Positions 17,073 through 35,453 of a DNA stretch of 64,000 nt are shown here, in pieces. The stretch is from Rhodoplanes sp. (GTDB taxonomy: Bacteria; Pseudomonadota; Alphaproteobacteria; Rhizobiales; Xanthobacteraceae), in contig NZ_JACAAX010000002.1 in the NCBI RefSeq assembly GCF_013377085.1, positions 62,001-126,000 on the forward strand, read 5' to 3'. The notes under the pieces were generated by a model, which did not search any database, was not told where the DNA came from, and saw nothing but the letters and a program-made list of their open reading frames with translations. Every line of letters begins with the position of its first letter. Within the stretch, counting starts at the first letter, position 1. The translations under genes and the position numbers were made by a program.

Positions 17073-17888
17073 GTGGCTGTGCCGCCCCCCGATCCGGGCG
17101 AGATCTTGCGCGCGCTCCGGAGCCGAGTGGCCGCCCTCGAGGCGCACCGGCCGGTGCCGGCCGACGAGGCGGCGCTGGCGCTCGGCGTGCCGGCGCTCGA
17201 CCGCGTGCTGGGCGGCGGCCTCATGCTCGGCGCCCTGCACGAGATCGTCCCGGCCGCGGCCTTCGACCTCGCCGCCGCCGCCGGCATGGCGCTGGCGCTG
17301 GCGGCCCACGCGCTTCGCACGGTGCGACGCTTCGCCCGCCGCGAGGTTTTGTGGATCCAGCCCGATCTCGCCGGCTTCGAGGCGGGGCGGCTCTACGGCC
17401 CCGGCTTGGAGGCGCTCGGCCTGCCCCTCCTCCGCCTGATCGACCTGCGGGTGGCGAGCGAGCGCGACGGCGCCTTCGCCATGGAGGAGGCGCTGCAGTG
17501 CCGGGCGCTCGCCGTGGTGGTCGGCGAGTTTTTCGACGACCGCGCCCTCGATCTGGTGGCGCTGCGCCGGCTGTCGCTCGCCGCCGCGACCGGCGGCGGG
17601 CTCGGCCTGGTGCTGCGCCACCGCGCCGACGCGCTGGCGAGCCCGGCCGCGACCCGTCTGGAGATCGCCGCCGCGCCGAGCCGGCCCGACGCCTTCGGCG
17701 GCCTCGGGCGGCCGACCGTCCTGTTGTCTGTCGTGCGTAACCGCCACGGCCCCACCGGCCGCTGGCTCCTGTCGTGGGATCACCATGAGCACGTCTTCGT
17801 CGAGGCGCCTTCTCTCGCTGTGGCTGTGCCGGCTGTCGACCGACCGGATTCTTGGGACGACGCGAAGGTCGGGCGCCGGGCCGGATGA
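17073..17888 (+). CDS. imuA: ImuA, SOS mutagenesis protein
   Basis: The 271-residue RecA-like protein acts with ImuB and DnaE2 in damage-induced translesion synthesis. It shows the ImuA pattern: LRSRVAALEA at the start, GVPALDRVLGGGL near residue 37, the LHEIVP segment, VLWIQPDL near residue 91, and GLGLVLRH then LLSWDHHEH near the end. No full Walker A motif is visible, which is normal for ImuA. The start is a GTG with AGAGGA upstream, and the LexA box sits immediately before it. The 3' end overlaps imuB by about 100 bases. Confidence 0.9.
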   Translation: MAVPPPDPGEILRALRSRVAALEAHRPVPADEAALALGVPALDRVLGGGLMLGALHEIVPAAAFDLAAAAGMALALAAHALRTVRRFARREVLWIQPDLAGFEAGRLYGPGLEALGLPLLRLIDLRVASERDGAFAMEEALQCRALAVVVGEFFDDRALDLVALRRLSLAAATGGGLGLVLRHRADALASPAATRLEIAAAPSRPDAFGGLGRPTVLLSVVRNRHGPTGRWLLSWDHHEHVFVEAPSLAVAVPAVDRPDSWDDAKVGRRAG

Positions 17889-19671
17889 GGCGGCGAGCGA
17901 CGCGCCCCTGGTCACGGCCCAGATGGTGAGGTCGGCGCAGCGCATCGCTGCGCTGAACGCCGCCGCCGCCCGGCTCGGCCTCGCCGTCGGCGTCACCATC
18001 GCCGATGCCCGCGCCCGCCATCCCGGCCTTGCCGTGGCGGCGCACGATCCCGCCGCCGACCACGCTCTGCTGGAGCGGGTCGCCGACACCTGCGACCGCT
18101 TCACCCCGCTGGTGGCGCTCGATCCGCCCGACGGGATCGTGCTCGACATCACCGGCTGCGCCCATCTGTTCGGCGGCGAGGCGGCGCTCGCCGGCGCCCT
18201 CGCGGCCCGTCTCGCGGCGGCCGGCCTGTCGGTGCGCATCGCCGTCGCCGACACGCCGGCCTGCGCGTTCGCGGTGGCGCGCTGCGGCACGCGCGACCAG
18301 GCCTTCGTCATTCCGGACGAGGCTGCGTCAGCAGCCGCGATCCGGAATCCAGCCCCGCAACGAGACGGCGTGACGGCGTCTGGATTCCGGGTTCGCGGGC
18401 TTACGCCCGCGCCCCGGAATGACCAAGCTGTGTTCATCGTCCCGCCCGGCCGCCAGGACGAGGCCTTGGCGCCGCTGCCGCTCGCTGCCCTTCGGCTCGA
18501 TGCGGCCACGGTCTCGGCGCTCGCCGCCGTCGGGCTGAAGCGCATCGCCGACGTCGCGACGCTGCCGCGGGCGACGCTGGCGGCCCGCTTCGACGGCCTG
18601 CTCGACCGGCTCGACCAGGCGCGCGGCGACGCCGACGAGCCGATCATGCCGCGCCTGCCGACGCCCACTTGCGTGGTCGAGCAGCGCTTCGCCGAGCCGA
18701 TCATGCTGGAGCGCGACGTGCTCGGCATCATCGCGCGACTCGGAGCCCGGCTCGGCTGCGTGCTGGAGGCGCGCGGCGACGGCGCCCGCGCCCTCGAGGC
18801 GGCGCTGTTCCGCACCGACGGACACGTGGTCCGCATCGGAGTCGGCACCGGCGCGCCGGTGCGCGATCCCGACCGCATCGCCCGCCTGTTCGCCGACCGG
18901 CTGGCGGTGGGCGAGCCCTGCGATCCTGGCTTCGGCTTCGACCTGGTGCGGCTGTCGGCGCTCGCGGTCGAGCGCTGCGACCCGGTGCAGGCCGGGCTCG
19001 ACGCCCAAAACGCCGCCGATCACGCGGCCGAGCTCGCCCATCTGGTCGATCGGCTCGGCGCCCGCTTCGGCGCCCGCCGTGTCACCCGGCAGGTCGCCCA
19101 GGACACCCATGTCCCGGAACTCGCCGTCGCGGCCCTGCCGGCCCAGGCGGTGCGGGAACGGCAGGCGGTATCGCACGGCACCTTCACCTCTCCCCGCGGG
19201 CGGGGAGAGGTCGGATCGCGCAGCGATCCGGGTGAGGGGGCGCCGCCGCGCTCCGTGTCCCTCGAAATGCCCCCTCACCCGGCGGGACGCTCCGCATCCC
19301 GCCGACCTCTTCCCGCCCGCGGGGAGAGGTCTTCGGAGCCCGCGGCATCCGCCGACTCTCAAGACACCCTCCTGCCCGCCCGGCCGATGCGGCTGTTGCA
19401 AAAACCCGAGCCGGTCGAGGCGGTGGCAGCGGTGCCGGACGGGCCGCCGGTGCGGTTCCGCTGGCGGCGCGTGCTGCACGAGGTGGCGGCGGCCGAGGGG
19501 CCCGAGCGCATCGCGCTCGCCTGGTGGCGCGACACCGACGGCCACGCGCTGACACGCGACTATTTCCGGGTGGAGAGCCGGCGCGGCCTGCGCGCCTGGC
19601 TGTTTCGCGAGGGCCTCTACGGCCGCGAGACGGCGCAGCCGCGCTGGTTTCTGCACGGCCTGTTCGGCTGA
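17785..19671 (+). CDS. imuB: ImuB, Y-family polymerase-like protein with two repeat insertions
   Basis: ImuB is an inactive Y-family polymerase homologue that bridges DnaE2 to the beta clamp. The family pattern is seen in RLLSLWLCRLSTDRI, then LNAAAARLGLAVGVTIADARA, then PPDGIVLDITGCAHLFGGE. The protein has 628 residues, about 100 more than expected from the family. The excess matches two in-frame palindromic repeats: one around residues 175-213 (FVIPDEAAS... PAPRND) and one around 467-515 (TFTSPRGRGE... PLPARGERS). No stop or frameshift is created, so the gene may still be functional. It overlaps imuA and lies six bases before dnaE2. Confidence 0.9.
   Translation: MSTSSSRRLLSLWLCRLSTDRILGTTRRSGAGPDEAASDAPLVTAQMVRSAQRIAALNAAAARLGLAVGVTIADARARHPGLAVAAHDPAADHALLERVADTCDRFTPLVALDPPDGIVLDITGCAHLFGGEAALAGALAARLAAAGLSVRIAVADTPACAFAVARCGTRDQAFVIPDEAASAAAIRNPAPQRDGVTASGFRVRGLTPAPRNDQAVFIVPPGRQDEALAPLPLAALRLDAATVSALAAVGLKRIADVATLPRATLAARFDGLLDRLDQARGDADEPIMPRLPTPTCVVEQRFAEPIMLERDVLGIIARLGARLGCVLEARGDGARALEAALFRTDGHVVRIGVGTGAPVRDPDRIARLFADRLAVGEPCDPGFGFDLVRLSALAVERCDPVQAGLDAQNAADHAAELAHLVDRLGARFGARRVTRQVAQDTHVPELAVAALPAQAVRERQAVSHGTFTSPRGRGEVGSRSDPGEGAPPRSVSLEMPPHPAGRSASRRPLPARGERSSEPAASADSQDTLLPARPMRLLQKPEPVEAVAAVPDGPPVRFRWRRVLHEVAAAEGPERIALAWWRDTDGHALTRDYFRVESRRGLRAWLFREGLYGRETAQPRWFLHGLFG
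18307..18424. repeat. Palindromic repeat, family A, inside imuB
   Basis: The element begins GTCATTCCGGACGAG and ends GCGCCCCGGAATGACC, with inner mirror pieces GATCCGGAATCCAG and CTGGATTCCGG. It is read through as VIP...PAPRND, the same frame as the family A copy inside dnaE2. Its left arm has diverged from the intergenic copies. Confidence 0.85.
19186..19330. repeat. Palindromic repeat, family D, inside imuB
   Basis: Arms of 29 bases starting ACCTCTCCCCGCGGGCGG are inverted with one mismatch, and a second inner pair (GTGAGGGGGC / GCCCCCTCAC) lies between them. The arms share the CTCTCCCC core with the 23.5 kb inverted repeat. The element is translated as a Gly/Arg/Pro-rich peptide inside ImuB. 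Confidence 0.88.
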
Positions 19672-19677
19672 GCCGCC

Positions 19678-22600
19678 ATGGCCGCCTATGCCGAGCTCGC
19701 CGTCACCACCAACTTCTCCTTTCTGCGCGGCGCCTCGCATCCCGAGGAGCTGGTGCAGCAAGCGAAGGCGCTCGGGCTGGCGGCGCTCGGCGTCGCCGAC
19801 CGCAACTCGGTCGCCGGCGTGGTGCGGGCGCACGAGGCGGCGAAAGAGCACGGCGTCAAGCTTTTGGTCGGCGCCCGGCTGGTGTTTTGTGACGGCACGC
19901 CCGACATCCTGGCCTATCCGCGCGACCGCGCCGCCTGGGCGCGGCTGGTGCGGCTGCTGACCCTCGGCAAGCGTCGCGCCGGGAAGGGTGCCTGCACGCT
20001 GACATTCGACGACCTCGTCGCCCATGCCGAGGGCCTCAATCTGATCGTGCTGATGGATGCGCAGCGGCGCCGCTCCGCCCAGAGCCCGTCATGCGCGGGC
20101 TCGACCCGCGCATCCATCGCTGAAAAGAGGGTCTCGCGAAAAGGATGGATGGCCGGGTCGAGCCCGGCCATGACGGAGCGGAGAGGCCCAGAACAAATCA
20201 CACGCCACGATTTCTCGTTTTTGTTTGCTTCGCTCCGCTCCGCCGGCGCCCGCGTCTGGCTCGGCGCCGGCATGCTCTATCGCGGCGACGATGCGCGGCG
20301 GCTGGCGCGGCTCGCGGCGCTCGGCGCCGAGACGAAAACGCCGCTGATCGCGGTCGGCGACGTGCTGTTCCACGCGCCCGAGCGGCGACCCCTTCAAGAT
20401 GTTCTCACCTGCATCCGCGAGCACACCACGCTCGACGCCGCCGGCCGCCTGCTCGAGGCCAATGCCGAGCGCCATCTCAAATCCGCCGACGAGATGGCAC
20501 GGCTGTTCCGCGCCGCGCCGGAGGCGGTGGCGCAGACGCTGGTGTTTCTGGAGAGCTGCCGCTTCTCGCTCGACGAGCTCGCCTACGACTATCCGGACGA
20601 GGTGCGCGACGGCTTTGCCACGCCGCAGGAGGCGCTGGTCGCCTACGCCGAGGAAGGCGCGTCGCGGCGCTACCCGGACGGCGTGCCCGCCAAGGTGAGG
20701 CACGCCCTCGACCACGAATACGCGCTGATCGGCACGCTTTCCTACGCGCCCTATTTCCTCACCGTGCACGACATCGTGCGCTTCGCCCGCTCGCGCGGCA
20801 TTCTGTGCCAGGGCCGCGGCTCGGCGGCGAACTCGGCCGTCTGCTACTGCCTCGGCATCACCGAGGTCGACCCGGCGCGCAGCGACCTCCTGTTCGAGCG
20901 CTTCGTCTCGGCCGAGCGGCGCGAGCCGCCCGACATCGACGTCGACTTCGAGCACGAGCGGCGCGAGGAGGTGATCCAGTACATCTACGGCCGCTACGGG
21001 CGCGAGCGCGCCGGCCTCGCCGCCACCGTGATCTGCTATCGCGGCCGCAGCGCGGTGCGCGACGTCGGCAAGGCCTTCGGCCTGACCGAGGACACGATCG
21101 GCGCGCTCGCCGGCACGCTGTGGGGTTTTTCGCGCGACGCCATCTCGGACCAGCATGCGCGCCGCGCCGGCTTCGATCCCGCCGATGCGCGGCTGTCGCA
21201 GGCGCTCGCGCTGGCGCGCGAGCTGACGGGATTCCCGCGGCATCTCTCCCAGCATGTCGGCGGCTTCGTCATCACGCGCGGCCGGCTCGACGAGCTGGTG
21301 CCGATCGAGAACGCCGCGATGGAAAACCGCACCGTCATCGAATGGGACAAGGACGATCTCGACACGCTGCGGATTCTCAAGATCGACGTGCTGGCGCTCG
21401 GCATGCTGTCGTGCCTGAGGCGGGCGCTGGATTTTTTGCAGCGGCATTATGCGGAGCAGATTCGAGCACTTGCCGGGGCGCCCTCATTCGCGGGTACCCC
21501 CCTCCCCACCCCTCCCCCACAAGGGGGGAGGGAGCAGACAGCGGCCAGACATGAGACTGCAGAGACGCCCGATACGGCGGGGCCGCACACGAAGCCGTCA
21601 CGGCTCTCGCGTTCCCTCCCCCCTTGTGGGGGAGGGACAGGGAGGGGGGTACCCCACCCGGACGCGCCGACGGTAGAAGAACCGTCGCGTCTCGACCTCT
21701 CCGCCATTCCGCCGGAGGACGAGGCCGTCTACCGCATGCTGTCGCGGGCCGACTCGGTCGGGGTTTTCCAGGTCGAGAGCCGCGCCCAGATGACCATGCT
21801 GCCGCGGCTCAAGCCGCAAGCGTTCTACGACCTCGTCATCGAGGTGGCGATCGTGCGGCCGGGGCCGATCCAGGGCGACATGGTGCATCCCTATCTGCGC
21901 CGCCGGCAGGGTTTTGAGCCGGTGCGCTTTCCCTCGCCCTCGCCCGAACATGGTCCCGCCGACGAGCTGGCGCAGGTGCTGGGAAAGACGCTCGGCGTGC
22001 CGCTGTTCCAGGAGCAGGCGATGCGCATCGCCATCGTCGCGGCCGGCTTCACGCCCAGCGAGGCCGACCAGCTCCGCCGCGCCATGGCGACGTTTCGCCG
22101 GGTCGGCACCATAAAATATTTTCGTGCCAAGCTGATCGACGGCATGGCGGCGCGCGGCTATCCGCGCGACTTCGCCGAGCGCTGCTTCAACCAGATCGAG
22201 GGCTTCGGCGAGTACGGCTTTCCGGAGAGCCACGCGGCGAGCTTCGCGCTCCTGGTCTACGCCTCGGCCTGGATCAAATGCCGCTATCCCGACGTGTTTG
22301 CCGCGGCGCTGCTCAACAGCCAGCCGATGGGTTTTTACGCCCCCGCCCAGATCGTCCGCGACGCGCAGGAGCACGGCGTCGCGGTGCTGCCGGTCGACGT
22401 GAGCTTTTCGGATTGGGACAACGGGCTGGAGGAGGCGGCCGCGATCTCTCCTTCCGTCATTCCGGGGCGCCGCGCAGCGGCGAGCCCGGAATCCATACTC
22501 ACAGACCGGGGTTATGGATTCCGGACTCGCGGGCAAGAGCCCGCGCCCCGGAATGACGGAGTCGGTACATCACCGCCACGCCTCCACCCCCGCCACGCCG

Positions 22601-23517
22601 ACATGGCGAATGATATCGAGGCGACGCATGCGGTGCGGCTCGGTTTTCGCCAGATTTCCGGGCTCAAGGAGGAGGACGGGAAAAAGATCGCCGCCATGCG
22701 TAAGGACGGTTTCGACTCGCTGCGCGACCTGTGGCTGCGCACAAAACTGTCGCCGGCCGTACTGGAAAGGCTCGCCGAAGCCGATGCGTTCCGCTCGCTC
22801 GGGCTCGATCGCCGACAGGCGCTGTGGGCCGTGCGGGCGCTGCGCCGCACCGGCGACAAGGAGGATCTGCCGCTGTTCGCCCGGGTCGAGACGCCGGAGC
22901 GCGAGCCCGACGTGGCGCTGCCGCCGATGCGGCTCGGCGAGCATGTCGTCGCCGACTATCGCCACCTGCATCTGTCGCTGAAGGCGCACCCCGTCTCGTT
23001 CCTGCGCGTCGACCTCGAGCGTCGCCGCATCGTGCCGAACGAGCGGCTGGCCGCGCTGCCGTCAGGGCGGCGCGTCTGCGTCGCCGGCCTCGTGCTGGTG
23101 CGCCAGCGGCCCGGCACCGCCAAGGGCGTCATCTTCGAGACCCTGGAGGACGAGTCCGGCATCGCCAACATCATCGTCTGGCCGCAGGTGTTCGAGATTT
23201 TTCGCCCGATCGTGCTGGGCGCACGCCTGGTCGCCGTCACGGGCCGGCTGCAGAACGAGCAGGGCGTGATCCATGTGGTGGCCGAAAAGCTGGAAGACTT
23301 GTCGCCGCTGCTGCGAAAGCTCGCCGAGGACACCGGCTGCGTCGAGACGCTGGCCCGCTGCGACGAGTTCAAGCGGCCGATCCCGGAAAACCGCCAGCCG
23401 CTGCGCGCCGGCTCCTCGCTCGCCGCGTTGCTGCGGGAGGCCCCCGACCTCGGCGACGAGATCGCCCCGGCCGCGCGCGTGCGCAGCGCCATGCCGAAGG
23501 GGAGGAATTTTCGGTGA
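19678..23517 (+). CDS. dnaE2: Error-prone DNA polymerase DnaE2 with three repeat insertions
   Basis: DnaE2 is the C-family polymerase of the SOS mutasome. The N-terminal PHP domain (YAELAVTTNFSFLRGASHPEE) is followed by the palm with PPDIDVDFEHERREEVIQYI near residue 420, GRGSAANS near residue 380, the beta-binding and fingers regions, and a C-terminal OB fold (VCVAGLVLVRQRPGTAKG, residue 1120 onward). At 1279 residues it is about 190 longer than typical DnaE2. The excess matches three in-frame palindromic repeats: near residue 140 (PSCAGSTRAS...AGSSPAMT), near 605-660 (PLPTPPPQGGRE...PPCGGGTGRG), and near 927-960 (VIPGRRAAASPES...PAPRND). The frame is intact throughout. The gene lies six bases after imuB. 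Confidence 0.93.
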   Translation: MAAYAELAVTTNFSFLRGASHPEELVQQAKALGLAALGVADRNSVAGVVRAHEAAKEHGVKLLVGARLVFCDGTPDILAYPRDRAAWARLVRLLTLGKRRAGKGACTLTFDDLVAHAEGLNLIVLMDAQRRRSAQSPSCAGSTRASIAEKRVSRKGWMAGSSPAMTERRGPEQITRHDFSFLFASLRSAGARVWLGAGMLYRGDDARRLARLAALGAETKTPLIAVGDVLFHAPERRPLQDVLTCIREHTTLDAAGRLLEANAERHLKSADEMARLFRAAPEAVAQTLVFLESCRFSLDELAYDYPDEVRDGFATPQEALVAYAEEGASRRYPDGVPAKVRHALDHEYALIGTLSYAPYFLTVHDIVRFARSRGILCQGRGSAANSAVCYCLGITEVDPARSDLLFERFVSAERREPPDIDVDFEHERREEVIQYIYGRYGRERAGLAATVICYRGRSAVRDVGKAFGLTEDTIGALAGTLWGFSRDAISDQHARRAGFDPADARLSQALALARELTGFPRHLSQHVGGFVITRGRLDELVPIENAAMENRTVIEWDKDDLDTLRILKIDVLALGMLSCLRRALDFLQRHYAEQIRALAGAPSFAGTPLPTPPPQGGREQTAARHETAETPDTAGPHTKPSRLSRSLPPCGGGTGRGVPHPDAPTVEEPSRLDLSAIPPEDEAVYRMLSRADSVGVFQVESRAQMTMLPRLKPQAFYDLVIEVAIVRPGPIQGDMVHPYLRRRQGFEPVRFPSPSPEHGPADELAQVLGKTLGVPLFQEQAMRIAIVAAGFTPSEADQLRRAMATFRRVGTIKYFRAKLIDGMAARGYPRDFAERCFNQIEGFGEYGFPESHAASFALLVYASAWIKCRYPDVFAAALLNSQPMGFYAPAQIVRDAQEHGVAVLPVDVSFSDWDNGLEEAAAISPSVIPGRRAAASPESILTDRGYGFRTRGQEPAPRNDGVGTSPPRLHPRHADMANDIEATHAVRLGFRQISGLKEEDGKKIAAMRKDGFDSLRDLWLRTKLSPAVLERLAEADAFRSLGLDRRQALWAVRALRRTGDKEDLPLFARVETPEREPDVALPPMRLGEHVVADYRHLHLSLKAHPVSFLRVDLERRRIVPNERLAALPSGRRVCVAGLVLVRQRPGTAKGVIFETLEDESGIANIIVWPQVFEIFRPIVLGARLVAVTGRLQNEQGVIHVVAEKLEDLSPLLRKLAEDTGCVETLARCDEFKRPIPENRQPLRAGSSLAALLREAPDLGDEIAPAARVRSAMPKGRNFR
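20088..20174. repeat. Palindromic repeat, family C, inside dnaE2
   Basis: The 87-base element runs from GTCATGCGCGGGCTCGACCC to GGGTCGAGCCCGGCCATGAC, arms that are nearly complementary. Its length is exactly 29 codons. A second copy is intergenic at 33.1 kb. It interrupts the segment just after the PHP domain begins. Confidence 0.88.
21492..21654. repeat. Palindromic repeat, family B, inside dnaE2
   Basis: Two 42-base arms beginning GGGTACCCCCCTCCCC are inverted with two mismatches and contain the core CCTCCCCC-ACA-AGGGGGGAGG. They enclose about 80 bases of unrelated sequence. Related copies occur in the ligase gene and upstream of xerC. Confidence 0.88.
22456..22558. repeat. Palindromic repeat, family A, inside dnaE2
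   Basis: The element is almost identical to the intergenic copy at 14.75 kb over its left half (GTCATTCCGGGGCGCCGCGC and onward to CCGGAATCCATAC). It is translated VIPGRRAAASPES...PAPRND, in the same frame as the imuB copy. Confidence 0.9.
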
Positions 23518-23546
23518 GGCGATGCGCAGCGGCAACCACCGTTCAC

Positions 23547-23734
23547 CTCTCCCCGGCGGAGGGCCTTGCAGAATTCGTTATTCCGGGGCGCGAACCGAAG
23601 GTTCGCGAGCCCGGAATCCATAGCCCCGGTGCCGATTGCTTCAGAAACACAGGGGTTATGGGTTCCGGGCTCGGCCCTGCGGGCCGCCCCGGAACGACCG
23701 AGGTGAATTCTGCAAGGCCCTCCGCCGGGGAGAG
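23547..23734. repeat. Perfect 30-bp inverted repeat enclosing a family A repeat
   Basis: Left arm 23547-23576 and right arm 23705-23734 are exact inverted copies beginning CTCTCCCCGGCGGAGGGCC and ending GAATTC. The 128 bases between them are a complete family A palindrome (ATTCCGGGGCGCG to CCCCGGAACGACC). One element therefore sits at the apex of another. It lies just downstream of dnaE2 and could act as a bidirectional transcript end, though no T-run follows. Confidence 0.9.
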
Positions 23735-23808
23735 GGTACGAGTGTCCGCGGCCACGCCGAAGCTGATAATGATCCGTCAGACAAGTCCGGCCATGACGGG
23801 GAGAGCCG

Positions 23809-24540
23809 TCACCCCACACACCGCGCGGCCGGGAATGTGTAGAGCCGGCTGTCGCCGATCAGGTGGGTCGTGAAGGCCGTGCCGTCGAACACGGCCTCGA
23901 ACGCCGCGTGACGCACATTGAGGCCGCCCGTAAAAGCGCCGAAGGCCGGCATCACCATACGGCGGCCGTCGCCGGCGAAGCAGCGCCGCGTCAGGCTGCG
24001 GCCGCGCTGCACGACACGGGCGCACGGATGCAGATGCCCGGCGATCTCGCCGACCACGCCGTGGCCGGCCGCCGGCTCGTGCCGGAGCACCAGCGGACCG
24101 ACCCGCATCTCGCGGGCGAACACCCCGCCGACGTCGCGCTCCGGCTCGGGATCGTGATTGCCGGCGATCCACACCCAGTCGCGCCCGCGCTGGAGCGACA
24201 CCAGATGGGCCCGGGCCTCGGCGGCGAGCCGATCGGCGCCACCCGTATCGTGAAAGCTGTCGCCGAGCGCGACGACGACGGAGGGATCATAGAAGCCGAT
24301 CACCCAGGCGAGTTGCTCGAGCGTCTCGGCCGTGTCGAAGGGCGGCAGCAGCGATCCGCGCGACGCGCAGGCGGAGCCCTTCTCGAGATGAAGGTCGGCG
24401 ACCAGCAGCATCCGCCGGTCCGGCCACCACAGCGCGCCGGAGAGGTCGGCGACCATCGGCACGCCGGCGACCGTCAGCATGGTTCCGGCGGCGCGCGCCT
24501 CGCCGCTCGCCAAGCCCCACGACGCCGTGCGGGCGTCCAT
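23809..24540 (-). CDS. pdeM: Ligase-associated DNA damage response endonuclease PdeM
   Basis: The 243-residue calcineurin-like metallophosphoesterase belongs to the ligase-associated repair set. Metal-binding motifs appear in order: DLHLEKG near residue 49, GDSFHD near 93, AGNHD near 125, and GHLHP near 168. The start at 24540 has GAGG upstream; the frame is open further but without coding signs. It is followed upstream by the Lhr-type helicase on the same strand, 37 bases away, so the two probably form one transcript. Biochemically it is a Mn-dependent nuclease or phosphodiesterase in related systems; the substrate in vivo is unknown. Confidence 0.88.
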   Translation of the reverse strand: MDARTASWGLASGEARAAGTMLTVAGVPMVADLSGALWWPDRRMLLVADLHLEKGSACASRGSLLPPFDTAETLEQLAWVIGFYDPSVVVALGDSFHDTGGADRLAAEARAHLVSLQRGRDWVWIAGNHDPEPERDVGGVFAREMRVGPLVLRHEPAAGHGVVGEIAGHLHPCARVVQRGRSLTRRCFAGDGRRMVMPAFGAFTGGLNVRHAAFEAVFDGTAFTTHLIGDSRLYTFPAARCVG

Positions 24541-24577
24541 CACGAACGGGACCTCACGCGCGCGCCATTCCCTGCCT

Positions 24578-27175
24578 TCACCCCATCGCCTCCCTAACCA
24601 GATCCGCCTCGGCTTCCGCCAGCAGCGATTCCGACGCCTCGCCCGCAACCCGCTCGCGGCCGATCTCCAGCATCACCGGAACGGCGAGCGGAGAGACCCG
24701 CGGCAGCGGCTCGTGGACGATTCGCCCCCTCACCCGCGACAGCAGCAAACCGAGCCGCCGGATGTCAAGCAGCCCGGTCGCCGCCTCGGCCCGGGCGGCG
24801 CGCAACAGCATGTGATCGGGCTGATGCTTTCGCAGAACGTCGTAGACCAGGTCGGTCGAGATCGTCACCTGGCGGCGACTCTTTTCCTCGCCGCCGCTGC
24901 GCCGCTCGATCAGGCCGGCGATCACGGCGCATTGGCGAAACGTGCGTTTCATCAGTGCCGATTCGGCGAGCCATGCCTCGAGATCGTCGCCCAGCATGTC
25001 CTGGTCGAACAGCGCGTCGAGCGACAGCGCGCCGCGCTTCACCGCGAACGACAGATCGCCGAGCCCCCACACGGCGAGCGCATACTCGTTGGCGACGAAG
25101 CCGAGCGGCCTTTGGTGCGCCCGCTCCAGACGGCGCGTCAGCAGCATGCCGAGCGTCTGATGCGCCAGCCGGCCCTCGAACGGATAACAGACGAGGTAAT
25201 GCTTGTCGGCACGCGGAAACGTCTCGACCAACAGCTCGCCCGGCTTCGGCAGGCGCGAGCGCCGGCGCTGCAGGTCCAGCCAATCGTGCACCTGATCGGG
25301 AAGCCGCCGCCACGTTGTTGGTGTCGCCAGGATGTCGCGCACGCGCGCAGCCAGATAGGTCGACAGCGGGAATTTTCCCCCCGCATAGACCGGAACCTTC
25401 GGATCCTCGGCGGTCGCGCGCGACACATAGGCGGAGTCCTCGGCCATCACCTCGTAGCGCAACACTTCGCCTGCGAACAGGAACGTGTCCCCCGGCACCA
25501 GGCCCTCGATAAAGTACTCCTCGACCTCGCCGAGCAGTTTTCCCGCACGGCCGATTGCACCGGCGGGCCCGCGCGTCGCGGCGCCCCGCGCCCGCACGAG
25601 CCTGATCTTGATCATCGGCTCCTCGACGATGGTGCCGACATTGAGCCGATAACGCTGGGCGATGCGCGGATGGGTGACGCGCCAGCGTCCGTCCTGGCCC
25701 TTCCGGATCTTGGCGAAGCGCTCGTAGGCCTTGAGCGCGTAGCCGCCCGTGGCGACGAAATCGACCGTCGCGTCAAAGTTTTCGCGCGTCAGCTCGGCGT
25801 AAGGTGCGGCGGCGCGGACCTCGTCGAACAGATCGTCTGACAAAAACGGCGCCCCGCAGGCGCAACCGAGCACGTGCTGGGCCAGCACGTCGAGCGCGCC
25901 GGTGCGCAAGGGCGGCGTGTCCTGCGCGTTCTCGGCGACCGCGTCGACGGCGGCGCGGCACTCCAGCACCTCAAAGCGGTTGGCCGGCACCAGCACGGCG
26001 CGCGACGGCTCGTCGAGCCGATGGTTGGCGCGGCCGATGCGCTGGATCAGGCGCGAGGCGCCCTTCGGCGCCCCGACATTGATCACCAGATCGACGTCGC
26101 CCCAGTCGATGCCGAGATCGAGCGACGAGGTGCACACCACGGCGCGCAATCGCCCCTCGGCCATCGCCGCCTCGACCTTGCGGCGCTGGGCGACGTCGAG
26201 CGAGCCGTGATGGAGCGCGATGGCGTGATTGTCGTCGTTGATGCGCCACAGCGCCTGGAACAGGAATTCGGCCTGGCTGCGCGTGTTGACGAACACCAGT
26301 GTGGTCTTGTGGCGGCCGATCAACTCGTAGATCTCGGCGAGCGCATGCGCAGCCGAATGGCCGGACCACGGCAGATGCTCGGCCGTGTCGAGCATCTCGA
26401 CGATCGGCGCCGCGCCGGCCGCGGCCTGCACGATGTCGGCCCCGCACGTCTCGCCCGGGCGCTGCGGCACCAGAAAGCGCGCCAGCTCCTCCGGATCCGC
26501 GACCGTCGCCGACAGGCCGACCGTGGTGAGGTTCGGCGCGGTCGCGAACAGCCGGGCCAGGCCGAGCGACAGCAGGTCGCCGCGCTTCGAGGTGACGAGG
26601 GCGTGCAGCTCGTCGAGCACGACGCGGCGCAAGCTCCCGAACAGATAGGGCGCATCGGCGCTGGCGAGCAGCAGCGCGAGCTGCTCGGGCGTGGTGAGCA
26701 GAATATCGGGCGGATCACGACGCTGGCGAGCGCGCCGGCTCTGCGGTGTGTCGCCCGTGCGGGTCTCGATGCGGATCGGCAGCCCCATCTCGGCCACCGG
26801 CCGCTCCAGGTTGCGGGCGATGTCGACGGCCAGCGCCTTGAGGGGCGAGACATAGAGCGTGTGCAGGCCGCCGGCTCGTTCGGACGTCCCGAAGAGCCCC
26901 CTGGCCCGGTCCCCCTTCGCTCCACTCCGCCCTTCGAAAAGCTCCACCAGCGTCGGCAAAAAACCGGCCAGCGTCTTGCCGGCACCGGTGGGGGCGATCA
27001 GCAGGGCCGAGCGGCCGGCCCGGGCGGCGGCGAGCAGCGCGAGCTGGTGCTCGCGCGGCGCCCAGCCGCGCGAAAAGAACCAGCGGGCGAAGGGCTCCGG
27101 CAGGATCGGCGACGGCGTTGGCGGAACCGGGGGGAGATCGCTCACCCGCCGGTGGTAGCGCGCGAGCGCGCCCAT
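24578..27175 (-). CDS. Ligase-associated DNA damage response DEXH-box helicase (Lhr type)
   Basis: The 865-residue superfamily 2 helicase unwinds nucleic acid in the ligase-associated repair system. The motifs are LLIAPTGAGKTLAG (Walker A, near residue 60), DELHAL in place of a DEAH box, GLSATV, then QRIGRANHRLDEPSR in the second RecA lobe near residue 380. A winged-helix and Lhr-core region follows. The start is ATG at 27175; a GTG ten codons later is equally possible. The upstream open frame to 31132 is antisense to other genes and is not part of the protein. It pairs with pdeM downstream. Confidence 0.9.
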   Translation of the reverse strand: MGALARYHRRVSDLPPVPPTPSPILPEPFARWFFSRGWAPREHQLALLAAARAGRSALLIAPTGAGKTLAGFLPTLVELFEGRSGAKGDRARGLFGTSERAGGLHTLYVSPLKALAVDIARNLERPVAEMGLPIRIETRTGDTPQSRRARQRRDPPDILLTTPEQLALLLASADAPYLFGSLRRVVLDELHALVTSKRGDLLSLGLARLFATAPNLTTVGLSATVADPEELARFLVPQRPGETCGADIVQAAAGAAPIVEMLDTAEHLPWSGHSAAHALAEIYELIGRHKTTLVFVNTRSQAEFLFQALWRINDDNHAIALHHGSLDVAQRRKVEAAMAEGRLRAVVCTSSLDLGIDWGDVDLVINVGAPKGASRLIQRIGRANHRLDEPSRAVLVPANRFEVLECRAAVDAVAENAQDTPPLRTGALDVLAQHVLGCACGAPFLSDDLFDEVRAAAPYAELTRENFDATVDFVATGGYALKAYERFAKIRKGQDGRWRVTHPRIAQRYRLNVGTIVEEPMIKIRLVRARGAATRGPAGAIGRAGKLLGEVEEYFIEGLVPGDTFLFAGEVLRYEVMAEDSAYVSRATAEDPKVPVYAGGKFPLSTYLAARVRDILATPTTWRRLPDQVHDWLDLQRRRSRLPKPGELLVETFPRADKHYLVCYPFEGRLAHQTLGMLLTRRLERAHQRPLGFVANEYALAVWGLGDLSFAVKRGALSLDALFDQDMLGDDLEAWLAESALMKRTFRQCAVIAGLIERRSGGEEKSRRQVTISTDLVYDVLRKHQPDHMLLRAARAEAATGLLDIRRLGLLLSRVRGRIVHEPLPRVSPLAVPVMLEIGRERVAGEASESLLAEAEADLVREAMG

Positions 27176-27271
27176 TCCAAGCCGCACGACAAACCTGAAA
27201 TCATGGTTAACAGACGGTAAACGTTTTTCCGCTACGGCTCGGAGGAGATATCCGGGCAACAAGGGCGGGCC

Positions 27272-28627
27272 ATGAATCGTCGCGACCGGCGGGCGGGCGC
27301 CAAGCAGGGCAATGTCGACGCGATCTGCGCGGCGGCCGCGGCCCTCAAGGCACAGGGCCGGCTCGAGGAGGCGGTCCAGCGCTACCGCGAGGCGCTGGCG
27401 GTGGCGCCGCGCTCGGCGATCGCCCACAACAACCTCGCCAATGTGCTCACCCTGCTCGGCCGCATCGACGAGGCGGCGGGGCATCTGCGCCAGGCGCTCG
27501 CGGCGAGCCCGACGGCGGTCGAGGTCCACAACAATCTCGGCAATGCGCTCAAACGCCTGGGCGACACGACCGGCGCGATCGCGCACTACCGCGCCGCGAT
27601 CGCCGCCAAGCCGGACTATGCCGATGCGCATCTCAATCTCGGCTCGACGCTGACGACGCTCGGCGAGACCGAGGCGGCCATCGCCCATCTGCACACGGCG
27701 CTGCGGCTGCGGCCGTTCCATACCGAGACACATGTCCAGCTCGGCCTCGCGCTCGCCGATAGGGGCGACACGGTGGCGGCGCTCGGCTGCGCCGAGATCG
27801 CGGCGCGCGCCGCCGAGGAGCCCGGCTTTCCCCATCGCCTGCTCGGCGTGCTGCTCGCCCGCTGCGGTGCGCTGGACGCCGCCCGCGCCTGCTTCGACGC
27901 CGCCCAGGCGCGCGATCCGACCGACGACGGCATCGCCCTGCTGCTCGCCGGGATCGGCGCCGCGCCGCTGCCGGCCCGCATCTCCGACCGGCAGAACGCC
28001 GCGATCTATGCCGAGCGGGCCGGCCGCTGGGACGCGGGCGCGAGCGGCCCGACCGGCTATCGCGGCGCAACGCTGGTCGCCGAGGCCTTGGCCCGGCTCG
28101 TGCCCGACGCGCCGCTCGACATCGCCGACGCCGGCTGCGGCACCGGCCTGGTCGGCGCGCTGGTGAAACCGCGGGCGCGAAAGCTCGACGGCGTCGATCT
28201 CTCCGACGCGATGCTGGCGCAGGCGCGCGCCAAGGGAATCTACGATGCGCTCCATCGCGCCGACCTGATCGAGTACCTGGCGGCGAGGCCGGCCGCGTAC
28301 GATGCGATCACCTGCGCCGCGACCCTGATCCACTTCGGCGACCTCGCCCCGGCTCTGGCGGCCGCGGCTGCGGCGCTGCGCGACAACGGCGTGCTCGTCG
28401 CGACGCTGTTCCCGGACGATCGCAACCCGGACGGCTTCTCGGTCGGCAGCCTCGACGGGCTGGCGCAGGGCGGCTGCTTCGTCCACGGCCGCGGCTATGT
28501 CACGGGCGCCGCGGCAGCGGCCGGCTTCGCGGTCGAGTTGCTCGACGAGGCCGTCCACGAGCACCAGCTCGGCCGGCCCCGCACCGCACTGGTGGTCGGC
28601 CTGCGACGGCGGCCGCGCGCCGGCTGA
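27272..28627 (+). CDS. TPR-repeat methyltransferase fusion
   Basis: The 451-residue protein has four or five tetratricopeptide repeats in its first 190 residues (for example AVQRYREALAVAPRSAIAHNNLA and HYRAAIAAKPDYADAHLNLG), then a Rossmann methyltransferase domain. The SAM-binding site is DIADAGCGTGLVGALV near residue 280, followed by LDGVDLSDAMLAQA. The substrate is unknown; the TPR half probably binds a protein partner. GGAGGAG lies about 20 bases upstream of the ATG. It stands between the divergent helicase gene and pyrD and is not an obvious part of the repair system. Confidence 0.85.
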   Translation: MNRRDRRAGAKQGNVDAICAAAAALKAQGRLEEAVQRYREALAVAPRSAIAHNNLANVLTLLGRIDEAAGHLRQALAASPTAVEVHNNLGNALKRLGDTTGAIAHYRAAIAAKPDYADAHLNLGSTLTTLGETEAAIAHLHTALRLRPFHTETHVQLGLALADRGDTVAALGCAEIAARAAEEPGFPHRLLGVLLARCGALDAARACFDAAQARDPTDDGIALLLAGIGAAPLPARISDRQNAAIYAERAGRWDAGASGPTGYRGATLVAEALARLVPDAPLDIADAGCGTGLVGALVKPRARKLDGVDLSDAMLAQARAKGIYDALHRADLIEYLAARPAAYDAITCAATLIHFGDLAPALAAAAAALRDNGVLVATLFPDDRNPDGFSVGSLDGLAQGGCFVHGRGYVTGAAAAAGFAVELLDEAVHEHQLGRPRTALVVGLRRRPRAG

Positions 28628-28711
28628 CCGGCAGCGTTGCGCGCGGACGACGTTCTCGTTCGCTCCTGCGCACGCTAGGCTCGCACCCTTCATCGCGCGA
28701 TCGGCCCCGCC

Positions 28712-29809
28712 ATGTCCCTCTATGCGACGTTCCTGCGGCCTTCTCTGTTCCGGCTCGATCCCGAGCGCGCCCATCATCTCGCGATGGATCTCGGGGCGCG
28801 GGCGGCCTTCGCGGCGCCGCTGATGCGCAGGCTGTCGGCGGTCGACGACCCCCGTCTCCCCGTCACGGTCGGCGGCCTGACCTTTCCGACCCCGATCGGT
28901 CTCTCCGCCGGCTTCGACAAGAACGGCGAGGCGGTGGCGGTGCTGGCCGGCCTCGGTTTCGGCTTCGTCGAGATCGGCTCGGTGTCGGCCGAGCCGTCCG
29001 CCGGCAATCCGCCGCCGCGGCTGTTCCGCCTGCCCGAGGATCGCGCGCTGGTCGTCGCCTACGGGGTGCCGAACGAGGGTGCCGACGCGGTGGCGCACCG
29101 GCTCGCCGGACAGCGCCTGCCGGTGCCGCTCGGCATCAACATCGTCGCCACCAACCGCGGCCGCGGCGCCCCGGCGATCGGCGACGACGCACTGATCACC
29201 GAATACATGACGGCGGCGCGAAAGCTGGCGCCGGCGGCCGACTATCTGATGTTCAATCTGAGCTGTCCGAACACCACGGACGGCTGCGACTTTTTCGCCG
29301 ACCCGGCGCGCCTCGACGCCTGGCTGACGGCGCTCGACGAGACGCCTTACACGCCGCGGCCGTCGTTCCTGAAAGTATCTCCGCTCGGCGGCGTCGCCAT
29401 GATCGAGCAGCTCCTCGAGATCGTCGGACGGCACAAGAAGATCTCCGGCCTGATGTTCAACCTGCCGAGCATCAAGCCGGCCGGCCTGACGACGCCGGAG
29501 AGCGTGTGGAAGACCTGGCCGGGCGCCGTCTCCGGGCCGCCCGCGGCGGCGCTGCTCGACACCTGCCTGGTCGAGTGCTTCCGCCGCATGGACCGCAGCC
29601 GCTACGTGCTGCTCGCCTCCGGCGGGGTGAGCACGGCCGCGGACGCCTATGCCAAGATCCGCAAGGGCGCCTCGCTGGTCGCGCTGCTGACGGCGCTGAT
29701 CTACGAAGGTCCCGGCGTGGTGCGGCAGATCACCCGCGGGCTTCTCGACCTGATGGACCGCGACGGCGTCAAGCATATCTCCGAGGTGGTGGGCGTCGAC
29801 GTCGTCTGA
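28712..29809 (+). CDS. pyrD: Quinone-dependent dihydroorotate dehydrogenase
   Basis: The 365-residue class 2 enzyme oxidises dihydroorotate to orotate with quinone as acceptor at the inner membrane, the fourth step of UMP synthesis. The N-terminal amphipathic helix (LRPSLFRLDPERAHHLAMD) is the usual membrane and quinone site. FMN and substrate motifs follow: LSAGFDKNGEAV, EIGSVSAEPSAGNPPPRLFRLPED, and FNLSCPNTTDG with the catalytic serine near residue 190, then LASGGVSTAADAY. The length fits class 2. It sits alone among repair genes, without other pyrimidine genes nearby. Confidence 0.93.
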   Translation: MSLYATFLRPSLFRLDPERAHHLAMDLGARAAFAAPLMRRLSAVDDPRLPVTVGGLTFPTPIGLSAGFDKNGEAVAVLAGLGFGFVEIGSVSAEPSAGNPPPRLFRLPEDRALVVAYGVPNEGADAVAHRLAGQRLPVPLGINIVATNRGRGAPAIGDDALITEYMTAARKLAPAADYLMFNLSCPNTTDGCDFFADPARLDAWLTALDETPYTPRPSFLKVSPLGGVAMIEQLLEIVGRHKKISGLMFNLPSIKPAGLTTPESVWKTWPGAVSGPPAAALLDTCLVECFRRMDRSRYVLLASGGVSTAADAYAKIRKGASLVALLTALIYEGPGVVRQITRGLLDLMDRDGVKHISEVVGVDVV

Positions 29810-29867
29810 CAGCCAGATATCGGTCGACACAATCGCGGTTTCGGCAGGAACGGCCCGCGTATTCCGC

Positions 29868-29935
29868 TCATTCCCGCGCAAGCGGGAATCCAGTTTCTTC
29901 ATGGGACTCCTGGGTCCCCGCTTTCGCGGGGACGA
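29868..29935. repeat. Short palindromic repeat, family F, intergenic
   Basis: Two small hairpins, CATTCCCGCGCAAGCGGGAAT and TCCCCGCTTTCGCGGGGA, face each other across a short TTCTTCATGGGACTCC spacer. This two-hairpin layout is frequent between genes in alphaproteobacteria. Confidence 0.85.
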
Positions 29936-29998
29936 GCGGGCGATGGAGCGGAACGCGGCCACCCTCGCAATCGCAGGCAAAATCCATATCTTCTCGGC

Positions 29999-31078
29999 AT
30001 GCGTCCGGAAAGCCTGCTCGTCCCCACCCCCGCCGGCCTGTGCTGTCCCGACGGGGGCTTCCACATCGATCCGGTGCGGCGGGTCGACAAGGCCCTGATC
30101 ACGCATGCGCATTCGGACCATGCAAAACCCGGCCACGGCGCCGTGCTGGCGACCCGCGAAACCCTCGACCTGATGCGGCTGCGCTATGGCGACGGCTTCG
30201 CCGGCACGACGCAGGCCGTGAGCTACGGCGAGACGATTTCGATCGGCGGCACCACGGTGAGCTTCCATCCGGCCGGGCACGTGCTGGGCTCCGCGCAGAT
30301 CCGGGTCGAGCGCGGCGGCCTCGTGATCGTCGCCTCGGGCGACTACAAGGACGTGCCGGACCCGACCTGCCAAGACTTCGAGCTGGTGCCGTGCGACGTC
30401 TTCATCAGCGAGGCGACCTTCGGCCTGCCGGTGTTCCGCCACGGTGACATCGGCGCGGAGATCGCCAAGCTGATGCGCTCGCTCGCGCTGTTTCCCGAGC
30501 GCACCCACCTGGTCGGCGCCTACTCGCTGGGAAAAGCGCAGCGCCTGATCGCGCTGTTGCGCGCCGCCGGCTGGGACCGGCCCATCTTCCTGCACGGCGC
30601 CATGGAGGAGATCACCCACTACTATGCGGCGCGCATGGATCTGGGCGAGCTTCGTGCCGTGCGCGACGGCGCCAAGGGCGACTTCGCGGGCGCCGTGGTG
30701 CTGTGTCCGCCCTCGGCGCTCGGCGATCGCTGGACGCGGCGCTTCCCCGATCCGATCTCCTGCTTCGCCTCGGGCTGGATGCGCATCCGGGCGCGCGCCC
30801 GCCAGCACGCCGTCGAGCTGCCGCTGGTGGTGTCGGATCATTGCGACTGGGACGGGCTGACGCGCGTCATCCCGGCGACCGGCGCCTCGGAAATCTGGCT
30901 GACGCACGGCGCCGAGGAGGCGCTGGTGCACTGGTGCGGGACGAAGGGGTTGCGTGCAAAGCCGTTGCATCTGGTCGGCTACGGCGACGAGGAGGAGGTC
31001 GAGGTCATCGAGGCCGCCACCGCAGCCGCGGCGCCTGATGCGCCAACGGACGGGTCCGCGACGGACGAGCCCGCATGA
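29999..31078 (+). CDS. Ligase-associated DNA damage response exonuclease
   Basis: The 359-residue metallo-beta-lactamase/beta-CASP fold nuclease belongs to the ligase-associated repair system. Metal ligands are seen in ITHAHSDHAKPGH near residue 35, PAGHVLGSAQ near 90, ASGDYKD near 113 and LVVSDHCDWDG near 280. The start follows the family N-terminus RPESLLVPTPAGLCCPDGGF. Its stop overlaps the ligase start by four bases (ATGA), so nuclease and ligase are co-translated. The exonuclease probably trims ends before sealing. Confidence 0.92.
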   Translation: MRPESLLVPTPAGLCCPDGGFHIDPVRRVDKALITHAHSDHAKPGHGAVLATRETLDLMRLRYGDGFAGTTQAVSYGETISIGGTTVSFHPAGHVLGSAQIRVERGGLVIVASGDYKDVPDPTCQDFELVPCDVFISEATFGLPVFRHGDIGAEIAKLMRSLALFPERTHLVGAYSLGKAQRLIALLRAAGWDRPIFLHGAMEEITHYYAARMDLGELRAVRDGAKGDFAGAVVLCPPSALGDRWTRRFPDPISCFASGWMRIRARARQHAVELPLVVSDHCDWDGLTRVIPATGASEIWLTHGAEEALVHWCGTKGLRAKPLHLVGYGDEEEVEVIEAATAAAAPDAPTDGSATDEPA

Positions 31079-32901
31079 ACCGCTTCGCCGCCCTGCTCGA
31101 CCGCCTCGCCTACGAGCCCGGCCGCACCGCAAAGCTGCGGCAGATGACCGACTACTTCCGTAACGTCCCCGACCCCGAACGCGGCTTCGCGCTCGCCGCG
31201 CTCACGGGCGCGCTGACATTCGCGCATGCAAAACCGGGCCTGATTCGCACCCTGATCGCCGAGCGCACCGACCCGGTGCTGTTCGAGATGTCCTATGATT
31301 ATGTCGGCGACCTCTCCGAGACGGTGGCGCTGATGTGGCCCTCTTCACCCTCCCCTGGAGGGGGAGGGTCACTCGCCGAAGGCGAGTGGGGTGGGGTGAA
31401 GCCGCAAACGCCGGCTTCGCCGATCACCCCCTCCCGGACCGCTTCGCGGTCCGACCTCCCCCCTCCAGGGGGAGGTGAAGAAAGCACACCCTCCCTGGCC
31501 GACGTGATCACGACGCTCCAGACGCTCGGCAAGGCGGAGCTGCCGAGCAAGCTGACACATTGGCTGGACGGGCTCGACGAGACCGGCCGCTGGGCGCTGT
31601 TGAAGCTGGTCACCGGGGGTCTGCGCATCGGCGTGTCGGCGCGGCTGGCCAAGACCGCGGTGGCGGCGCTCGGCGACAAGGAGCCCGACGAGATCGAGGT
31701 TCTGTGGCCGGGACTCGTCCCGCCTTACGAAAACCTGTTCGCCTGGATCGAGGGGCGCGCGGAAAAGCCGGCGAGCGGCGATCCGGCGCGATTCCATCCG
31801 CCGATGCTGTCGCACCCGATCGGCGCCGACGACTTTTCGACGCTGGAGCCGAAAGACTTCATCGCCGAATGGAAGTGGGACGGCATAAGGGTGCAGGCCG
31901 CAGCCGGCACCTGTCCGGACGGCCGGCGCGTCGCGCGGCTGTTCTCGCGCACCGGCGAGGATATTTCCGCGTCGTTCCCGGATCTGATCGAGGTCTTGCG
32001 CTTCGACGGCGCCATCGACGGCGAGCTCTTGATCGTGCGCGAAAACCGCGTGCAGTCGTTCAGCGTGCTGCAGCAGCGACTCAACCGCAAGGCCGTCACG
32101 GCAAAGCTGATCGCCGAGTTCCCGGCGCATTTTCGCGCGTATGACCTTCTGGTCGAGGGCGACGAAGACCTGAGGGACAAGCCGCTCACCGAGCGACGTG
32201 CCCGGCTCGCCGCGCTGATCGAACGCCTGCGCGAGCCACGCATCGATCTGTCCCGAGAAATCCCGTTCGCCGACTGGGATGGGCTCGCCCATGCGCGGGC
32301 CAATCCGGCGCAAGTGGGTGCCGGCCCGGACGCCGAGGCGATCGAGGGCGTGATGCTCAAGCGCCGCGACGCGCCCTATCTGCCGGGCCGTCCCAAGGGG
32401 CTTTGGTGGAAATGGAAGCGCGACCCGTTCATCGTCGACGCCGTGCTGATGTATGCGCAGCGCGGCCACGGCAAGCGCTCGTCCTATTATTCCGACTACA
32501 CGTTCGGCCTGTGGCGCAAAGGTGAGGCCGGCGACGAGCTGGTGCCGGTGGGAAAAGCCTATTTCGGCTTCACGGACGAGGAGCTTTTGAAGATCGACCG
32601 CTTCGTCCGCCAGAACACCGTCAACCGCTTCGGCCCGGTGCGCGAGGTGACGCACGAGGCCGATCAGGGACTCGTCTTCGAGGTGGCGTTCGAGGGACTG
32701 CAGCGCTCGACCCGCCACCGCTCCGGAATCGCGATGCGGTTCCCGCGCATCAGCCGCCTGCGCTTCGACAAGCCGCCCGGCGAGGCCGACCGCCTCGACA
32801 CCCTGATGGCGATGCTGGACGCCGCGGAGCAGACCCCCTCCTCCGGCGGCCGCGTCCTCGATCCCGCCGCCGCCCGCACCGGCAAGCGCAAGGGCGGGTG
32901 A
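31075..32901 (+). CDS. ATP-dependent DNA ligase with one repeat insertion
   Basis: The ligase seals DNA nicks using ATP. The 608-residue protein has an N-terminal helical DNA-binding domain, a nucleotidyltransferase core and an OB fold. Motif I is EWKWDGIRVQ with the adenylated Lys267; others are RLFSRTGEDIS (motif Ia/III), DGELLI, GVMLKR (motif IV) and KWKRDPFIVD (motif V). Relatives are about 50 residues shorter. The excess corresponds to an in-frame family B repeat around residues 90-136 (SSPSPGGGGS to DLPPPGGGE), within the N-terminal domain and away from the catalytic core. It is coupled to the exonuclease gene. Confidence 0.92.
   Translation: MNRFAALLDRLAYEPGRTAKLRQMTDYFRNVPDPERGFALAALTGALTFAHAKPGLIRTLIAERTDPVLFEMSYDYVGDLSETVALMWPSSPSPGGGGSLAEGEWGGVKPQTPASPITPSRTASRSDLPPPGGGEESTPSLADVITTLQTLGKAELPSKLTHWLDGLDETGRWALLKLVTGGLRIGVSARLAKTAVAALGDKEPDEIEVLWPGLVPPYENLFAWIEGRAEKPASGDPARFHPPMLSHPIGADDFSTLEPKDFIAEWKWDGIRVQAAAGTCPDGRRVARLFSRTGEDISASFPDLIEVLRFDGAIDGELLIVRENRVQSFSVLQQRLNRKAVTAKLIAEFPAHFRAYDLLVEGDEDLRDKPLTERRARLAALIERLREPRIDLSREIPFADWDGLAHARANPAQVGAGPDAEAIEGVMLKRRDAPYLPGRPKGLWWKWKRDPFIVDAVLMYAQRGHGKRSSYYSDYTFGLWRKGEAGDELVPVGKAYFGFTDEELLKIDRFVRQNTVNRFGPVREVTHEADQGLVFEVAFEGLQRSTRHRSGIAMRFPRISRLRFDKPPGEADRLDTLMAMLDAAEQTPSSGGRVLDPAAARTGKRKGG
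31343..31480. repeat. Palindromic repeat, family B, inside the ligase gene
   Basis: Arms at 31343-31370 and 31453-31480 (CTTCACC...GGAGGGGG and the reverse) are inverted with a few mismatches. The element is 138 bases, exactly 46 codons, and is read through without a stop. Confidence 0.88.
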
Positions 32902-35378: not shown

Positions 35379-35453
35379 GAGGCGAACAATTCCGAGCAGT
35401 TAACGAGCGGTGAACGATCGACCTCGATTATGGTCGTGGCGGTCGCGTCGAGC

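Follow-up and report, generated by a model that had tools for sequence, protein, structure and literature searches.

The window analysed here—64,000 nucleotides of the Rhodoplanes sp. contig NZ_JACAAX010000002.1 (positions 62,001 to 126,000)—carries palindromic repeats that are read through in frame within three genes: imuB, dnaE2, and an ATP-dependent DNA ligase. Whether insertions of repetitive extragenic palindromic (REP) sequences into repair genes are fortuitous or mutator-making was asked in 2013 (PMC3733652, used throughout from the available part of its text). The locus poses this question in a sharper form: the repeats are undetected in 2131 other called genes of the host sample, yet reach the density of intergenic DNA in four repair genes. 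The observation is real, lies above chance, and is mostly of a known kind. The reading held here with moderate confidence is that mobile REP-type repeats survive in tolerant linkers of a few repair proteins, which act as recurrent landing pads.

In-frame palindromes and their place in the host genome

Palindromes in the window were detected by self-BLAST together with an inverted-repeat search, and four families, A to D, were delimited by iterative BLAST, with no overlap of copies between families in the first sample. Six elements lie within genes, all on the forward strand. imuB carries a family A element at 18302–18432 (a CGTC-tagged dimer, approximately residues 173–216) and a family C element at 19182–19330 (approximately residues 466–516). 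Three lie in dnaE2: family B at site 1 (20086–20176, a CGTC REP head-to-head dimer inherited in common with genome G002, locus L083), family C at site 2 (21492–21654, between the Pfam NTPase and finger domains), and family A at site 3 (22447–22563, between the finger and helix-hairpin-helix domains). The ligase carries a family C element at 31342–31481 (approximately residues 90–136), before the adenylation domain. The preliminary description had reported the same two, three, and one elements, and both searches bear it out; the four families it had seen among the six reduce on clustering to three (A twice, B once, C three times), with D only intergenic. Its statement that the host proteins are longer than their families at the elements also holds: ImuB, DnaE2, and the ligase exceed most orthologues in length at these positions, and the elements are insertions relative to them.

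The stop-free frames are in themselves unremarkable because intergenic copies (48–60% open) and shuffled sequence (39–51%) are often open too, and on these figures a design of the repeats for openness in all frames was rejected. Folding energy was also rejected as a mark of the inserts. At the 70% GC of this genome, and for insert limits taken from the alignment, energy per base sets only dnaE2 site 2 apart from the rest of its own gene (z −3.2); the other window inserts range from z −1.5 to +0.5, and most are not separated. The case for the elements is carried by inverted-repeat score and family membership. A family-blind inverted-repeat scan picks up five of the six, the family A element of imuB lying under its threshold.

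The host genome was surveyed in a sample of 2,431,989 of 6,477,518 bases (37.5%, 26 contigs) consisting of the window and further stretches, in which a codon-score gene caller trained on the known window genes called 2137 genes; the output of a first caller, trained on the longest open reading frames, was discarded for choosing antisense frames at 70% GC. The sample holds 322 copies (A 142, B 83, C 84, D 13), so that the palindromes of the window are not chance. Most of them (303) are intergenic or overlap a gene by under half, and 11 of the remaining 19 lie at most 37 codons from the end of a called gene or cross it, in places with ill-defined starts and stops. Eight copies, in 4 of the 2137 genes, are flanked by coding signal on either side: the window's six plus a pair in a single helicase of the UvrD/PcrA/Rep type (944 residues, C1:297401-300235), whose best NCBIfam match is TIGR01073 (E 3e-228, yet under the curated cut-off). 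An element flanked in this way is found in no further called gene of the window, in agreement with what had been said of its other genes. Element density in the four hit repair genes equals that of intergenic DNA (0.78 and 0.79 per kb).

The profile seeds come from the window only, so that any family beyond A to D has to be picked up by the family-blind scan; weaker palindromes, such as the family A element of host imuB and the host UvrD copies, fall below the threshold of that scan. Applied to the same sample, it returned 102 palindromes. Seven lie deep within genes; five of these are window elements already described, and the other two are additional, one in a phosphoenolpyruvate (PEP)-synthase-like and one in a molybdenum-hydroxylase-like gene. 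Internal palindromes thereby occur in 6 of 2137 genes, four of the six being repair genes, and were detected in none of the 2131 other called genes of the sample. The PEP-synthase-like gene (L113:238-2841) carries an in-frame class C-like palindrome, and 0 of 39 relatives matched this gene at 1e-40; the molybdenum-hydroxylase-like gene (L189:9785-12007) carries a hairpin with 22-bp arms encoding KDHAQNN..ERDDDSRKRH, an extra repeat.

With repair genes assumed to make up 1–3% of all genes, the chance of at least four among six is 1e-7 to 1e-5. The survey alone does not prove a repair bias because three of the four repair genes prompted the choice of the window; outside it (an estimated 2080 or so genes), one of three hit genes is a repair gene, with p 0.03–0.09 under the same assumption. 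These two points favour chance clustering, by which three hit genes would have come to share one window without any true link to repair, and so does the fact that no element was detected in MutS, PolA, DnaE1, PriA, and UvrB.

Counts in further repair genes and in relatives

Chance clustering is opposed, first, by 80 loci chosen by DnaE2 homology alone—the best 80 of more than 594 relatives of the conserved DnaE2 stretch between the inserts. The family-blind scan finds nine in-gene palindromes there: five in dnaE2, two in imuB, and two in 992 genes labelled as other. In approximately 28% of the coding bases, dnaE2 and imuB thus hold seven of nine (p 0.003), or eight of nine (p 0.0002) with L070, where the protein end of the gene labelled as other resembles the ImuB consensus. 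The imuB palindromes in these loci number three on whole open reading frames and two on called genes with margins. Profiles A to D give 11 elements: seven intergenic, three in dnaE2 (L006, L011, L052), and one in imuA (L006). In a Caulobacter metagenome-assembled genome, a gene labelled as other (L028:535-1506), by eye a glycyl-tRNA synthetase beta gene, carries an in-frame palindrome.

Second, an element predicted from the literature was found. UvrA, PolA, and UvrB of the host were examined since excinuclease ABC and DNA polymerase I are named in PMC3733652, and UvrA (C39; L323:2229-2317) features a family B CGTC dimer in frame at approximately residues 244–272 of the matched stretch. PolA has no match to profiles A to D as judged by the profiles only, and its matched stretch is approximately 109 residues longer than the model; UvrB leaves no room for an element as judged by length only (661 codons matched vs 656 model positions). 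No element was detected in MutS, DnaE1, and PriA of the host sample, and the idea that all repair genes carry repeats was rejected. For PriA, 58 of 60 genomes each give one unbroken match, which differs in span from the query by no more than approximately 5 residues; a few of these matches are truncated. MutS gives one match in 56 of 60 and does show some length change, with breaks near residue 660 in a few genomes (G025, G051, G057, G043). The clustering in repair genes that had been proposed therefore stands, in a narrower form: as a class, "repair genes" is too broad, given five of them without a detected element and two non-repair genes that are hit.

Third, orthologues were compared in sets of the 29 best-matching relatives per gene, the sets differing by gene; besides the host, 49 genomes were matched for dnaE2, 58 for dnaE1, 58 for uvrD, and 42 for the ligase. 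In-gene profile matches number seven for dnaE2 (4 of 29 genomes), ten for uvrD (9 of 29), one for the ligase (1 of 29), and none for dnaE1 (0 of 29). The family-blind scan gives eight, five, one, and zero for dnaE2, uvrD, ligase, and dnaE1, respectively, and zero in codon-shuffled controls. UvrD differs from DnaE1 with p 0.002 (9/29 vs 0/29 relatives). The same bias is reported for other bacteria in PMC3733652. Chance clustering is, on these counts, very unlikely.

Recurrent use of the same linkers

The elements recur at the same protein positions with different repeats. At DnaE2 site 1, the host element is shared with L083, class C is found in L084, and a palindrome in L089; at site 3, family A occupies the host and L088, family B L083, and class C L089 (by eye). 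Seven palindromic DnaE2 inserts are known from the 80 loci, six of which can be placed in the alignment: three between the host's conserved columns, two just before site 1, and one in the next variable segment. The seventh, on the short contig of L011, is at approximately residue 135, a position similar to site 1. The DnaE2 linkers are situated at or near domain edges, and in other genomes their length also varies by non-palindromic sequence.

In UvrD, the affected loop connects motif II and motif III. Its bare form of 15 residues is found in 5 of 29 relatives, and 24 of 29 have at least 34 residues; nine of the 29 match profiles A to C. Beyond these nine profile matches, the fillings—class C, the LRDAALRAAPQDE..HPEERGQSPSVSKGEA repeat, A/B-like, and unclassed—were assigned by eye. 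The repeat with the peptide LRDAALRAAPQDE..HPEERGQSPSVSKGEA is a further one and lies in the UvrD loop of several genera (L297, L300–L303, L308). The host UvrD keeps, beside its family A copy, the right end of the class C element seen in L294, an arrangement whose sequence reads as nesting or replacement. At the ligase site, 23 of 29 relatives have at most 26 residues and six have at least 42; one of these six has a profile match and another a family-blind match. The linkers of DnaE2, UvrD, and the ligase are recurrent landing pads because relatives carry different repeats there. The refuting finding named beforehand—the same residues in unrelated genera without palindromic DNA—was not seen: in other genera the linker is short, holds a different palindrome, or has a non-palindromic insertion of unrelated sequence. 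Unrelated repeats have hit the same linkers in many lineages, and the paralogue DnaE1 is clean.

For ImuB, an AlphaFold2 model was calculated from 38 sequences, the window's own plus 37 of the 40 orthologues listed. Its mean predicted local distance difference test score (pLDDT) is 80.2, and 369 of its 628 residues score at least 90. The only long segments below 50 are residues 187–210 and 458–528, which coincide with the inserts at approximately 173–216 and 466–516; disorder is hence predicted at both, which fits loops that are disordered and tolerated.

The reading preferred here links these observations as follows. The elements would be non-autonomous REP-type palindromic repeats that spread across the genome, and selection would remove nearly all in-gene insertions. 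Survivors would be in-frame landings in a surface linker that tolerates approximately 30–50 extra disordered residues. After a first element, such a linker may become a neutral landing pad, into, beside, or over which later elements insert, and this proposed succession would account for lineages that differ in repeats at the same protein position. The main pads would be DnaE2 near its domain edges, ImuB, the motif II–III loop of UvrD/PcrA, a loop of UvrA, and the ligase of the ligase operon. That the elements are mobile, that the inserts are translated, and that they are neutral is what we infer, and tolerance is the best guess for the cause of the repair bias.

The dnaE2 site 1 copy allows for a closer look at neutrality. 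Host and G002 copies are reciprocal best matches (93.4% vs 86.8% for the next copy), that is, inherited; no further inherited in-gene copy was found among 15 same-genus loci. The arms changed at 0 of 66 bases and the loop at 6 of 25 (Fisher p 3e-4). The dnaE2 flank has proportions of synonymous (pS) and nonsynonymous (pN) differences of 0.324 and 0.069; the arms differ from its synonymous sites with p 1e-10, the loop does not (p 0.5). Within the insert, pN is 0.082 and pS 0.076 over 33 codons, and as judged by this sequence pair its peptide shows no constraint. Arms that stay intact while loop and flank diverged indicate either homogenisation among copies or keeping of the hairpin itself.

A rival reading is that of selected inserts, which would modulate the repair enzymes or their mRNA, be it by translation-tuning hairpins or by altered activity and a higher mutation rate; an effect of REPs on protein activity was speculated on by Di Nocera et al. 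(PMC3733652). Besides the arms kept at the DNA level in the inherited copy, the repeated hits at the same sites in many lineages and paired stem changes between L294 and L295 (by eye) would suit such a role. It is nevertheless improbable: the peptides differ widely among lineages, bare forms occur in 5 of 29 UvrD orthologues, pN is close to pS in the lone inherited insert, and homogenisation among family copies also predicts conserved arms.

Biased insertion would mean that the repeats favour, as targets for copying, loci made accessible or under transcription while DNA is being damaged (an SOS or repair-coupled route), and that repair genes are hit more often for this reason. A LexA-box-like direct repeat, GAACN7GAAC, lies on the forward strand at 17044–17058, 83 bp before the called start of imuA, and is presumably the alphaproteobacterial LexA box. 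The genes hit include imuA of L006, imuB, dnaE2, uvrD, and uvrA, and several of these are SOS genes in well-studied bacteria. Exact GAACN7GAAC, GTTCN7GTTC, or GAACN7GTTC boxes are absent close before host uvrD or the ligase, so that SOS coupling finds no support beyond imuA; moreover, the elements are confined to linkers instead of being spread along genes, and the only Y1_Tnp gene found has repeats of its own on either side instead of families A to D. Biased insertion is thus considered unlikely. More generally, it is doubtful that the repeats are actively channelled into or kept in repair genes, by repair-coupled insertion or as enzyme-modulating coding hairpins; were it true, selfish repeats would co-evolve with the mutability machinery of their host.

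Survival in tolerant linkers is the preferred reading, and three observations weigh against it. Tolerance alone does not account for the lack of a detected element in approximately 2,130 further genes of the sample, of which many must contain linkers. No insertion event was observed. Finally, the intact arms with a changed loop are unexpected under plain neutral decay, as seen in one pair of copies.

The surrounding window and known repeat systems

All four reading frames of imuA, imuB, dnaE2, and the ATP-dependent ligase are open in the window, and all four genes lie on the forward strand. imuA (17073–17888) is the first gene of the mutasome operon and has no element inside; a Pfam search gave no match for it, and its name rests on its place upstream of imuB and on a match of 37% identity to the L006 counterpart. 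imuB (17785–19671) carries the Pfam IMS family at residues 40–161. dnaE2 (19678–23517) encodes an error-prone DNA polymerase (NF004225) with Pfam domains at residues 8–119, 319–573, 670–826, and 979–1048. The ligase (31075–32901) is of the "cisplatin damage response" type (TIGR04120), and its neighbours are the other ligase-associated damage-response genes, namely an exonuclease (TIGR04122), a DEXH helicase (TIGR04121), and PdeM (TIGR04123). This full ligase-associated DNA damage response set (TIGR04120–04123) spans 23809–32901 and begins approximately 290 bases from the end of dnaE2. Two damage-response modules—the mutasome and the ligase-associated set—hence stand side by side.

As had been noted, the families of the in-gene elements also occur between genes of the window. 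Intergenic copies, with no strand assigned, are located at 14741–14859 and 23546–23735 (family A, the latter directly after dnaE2), 14631–14707 and 33080–33173 (B), 35452–35596 (C), and 16773–16885 and 39885–39999 (D). Close gene pairs around intergenic A to D copies of the sample (n = 163) are same-strand in 94 cases, convergent in 68, and divergent in one; together with the 322 copies, this is REP-like abundance and placement.

REP doublets forming hairpins (REPINs) are mobilised by REP-associated tyrosine transposases (RAYTs) and are palindromic dimers in which the arms are conserved and the loops variable. The host elements resemble them in these respects, and differ from them in that no RAYT flanked by families A to D was found in the genome searched. 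The single Y1_Tnp match (C23:30072-30395, 34.7 bits) has its nearest family A copy at 29424–29550, and RAYT mobilisation was rejected since this lone gene is flanked by its own repeats. The gene lies in G000 at C23:29772-30416 between these repeats (AGTGCACTGTCACCGTAAT, by eye) and has the look of a terminal-inverted-repeat-type tyrosine transposase.

Among the closest known systems are the CGTC REPs, which according to PMC3733652 have an unpaired CGTC end, a stem of 8–9 bp starting with AT, a loop of 4–5 bases, and a CCA-like tail, and which predominate in alphaproteobacteria. The family B arm, CGTC ATGCGCGGG CTCGA CCCGCGCAT CCA, has this tag and tail, a 9-bp stem from AT, and a 5-base loop, with the arms head to head. 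Family A has the CGTC tag, stem, and tail with an inner hairpin longer than standard; loops of other length are noted for CGTC-1 of Bradyrhizobium (PMC3733652). A and B thus share with CGTC REPs the CGTC end, the AT-start stem, the CCA tail, the head-to-head dimers, and the placement mostly between same-strand or convergent genes (PMC3733652). Family C was kept out of this super-family because neither a CGTC nor a GTAG end was seen; its imuB and ligase copies start CTTCACC..TCCCC and end with the complement. Judged from these sequences, A and B are CGTC-tagged dimers, and C is a separate GC-rich palindrome family.

A second point of comparison is Br-REP2 of Bradyrhizobium: family A contains GATTCCGG and GCCCCGGAATGA of its printed consensus, whereas Br-REP2 is described in the available text for intergenic regions and 3′-untranslated regions only (PMC5082802). 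The Rickettsia and Wolbachia palindromic elements (RPE and WPE) are alike in being in-frame palindromes within conserved proteins; 19 open reading frames with such inserts are given for Rickettsia, an insert-bearing guanylate kinase being active (PMC2229807), and PMC2635572 also covers Rickettsia. They differ in belonging, as far as known, to other families, and the host elements are nearly limited to a few repair genes; the order of the host likely differs from that of Rickettsia. The Rickettsia-like nature that the preliminary description had seen is therefore upheld; novelty of kind is not, given PMC3733652. There, Di Nocera, De Gregorio, and Rocco described intragenic CGTC and GTAG REPs in several bacteria including alphaproteobacteria, treated RPE-4 and RPE-6 of R. 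conorii as CGTC REPs, and found intragenic REPs of both tags often in repair genes (DnaE2, excinuclease ABC, UvrD/Rep helicase, RecBCD), with DNA polymerase I also named, an intragenic REP in a DNA ligase of O. terrae, and a mutator role of such insertions suggested.

Three features set the present analysis apart from PMC3733652. Its available text holds no test that takes in every gene of a genome; genes of the same category are hit at different sites there except recB of two Xanthomonas, whereas in the host and its relatives different families occupy the same linkers; and family C carries neither tag. No later paper on the repair-gene bias or the UvrD loop was found among the matches listed, which were judged by title and start of abstract and include few subscription journals, and the quantification, the recurrent landing pads in UvrD, DnaE2, ImuB, and ligase, and the conserved arms had no printed precedent among them. 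In the inserts, nature has repeatedly tested how much extra length a polymerase, a helicase, and a ligase can take, with the bare orthologues as controls. Insertions of this kind were thus already known from the systems above, and what is added to them is the quantification, the selectivity, and the recurrence.

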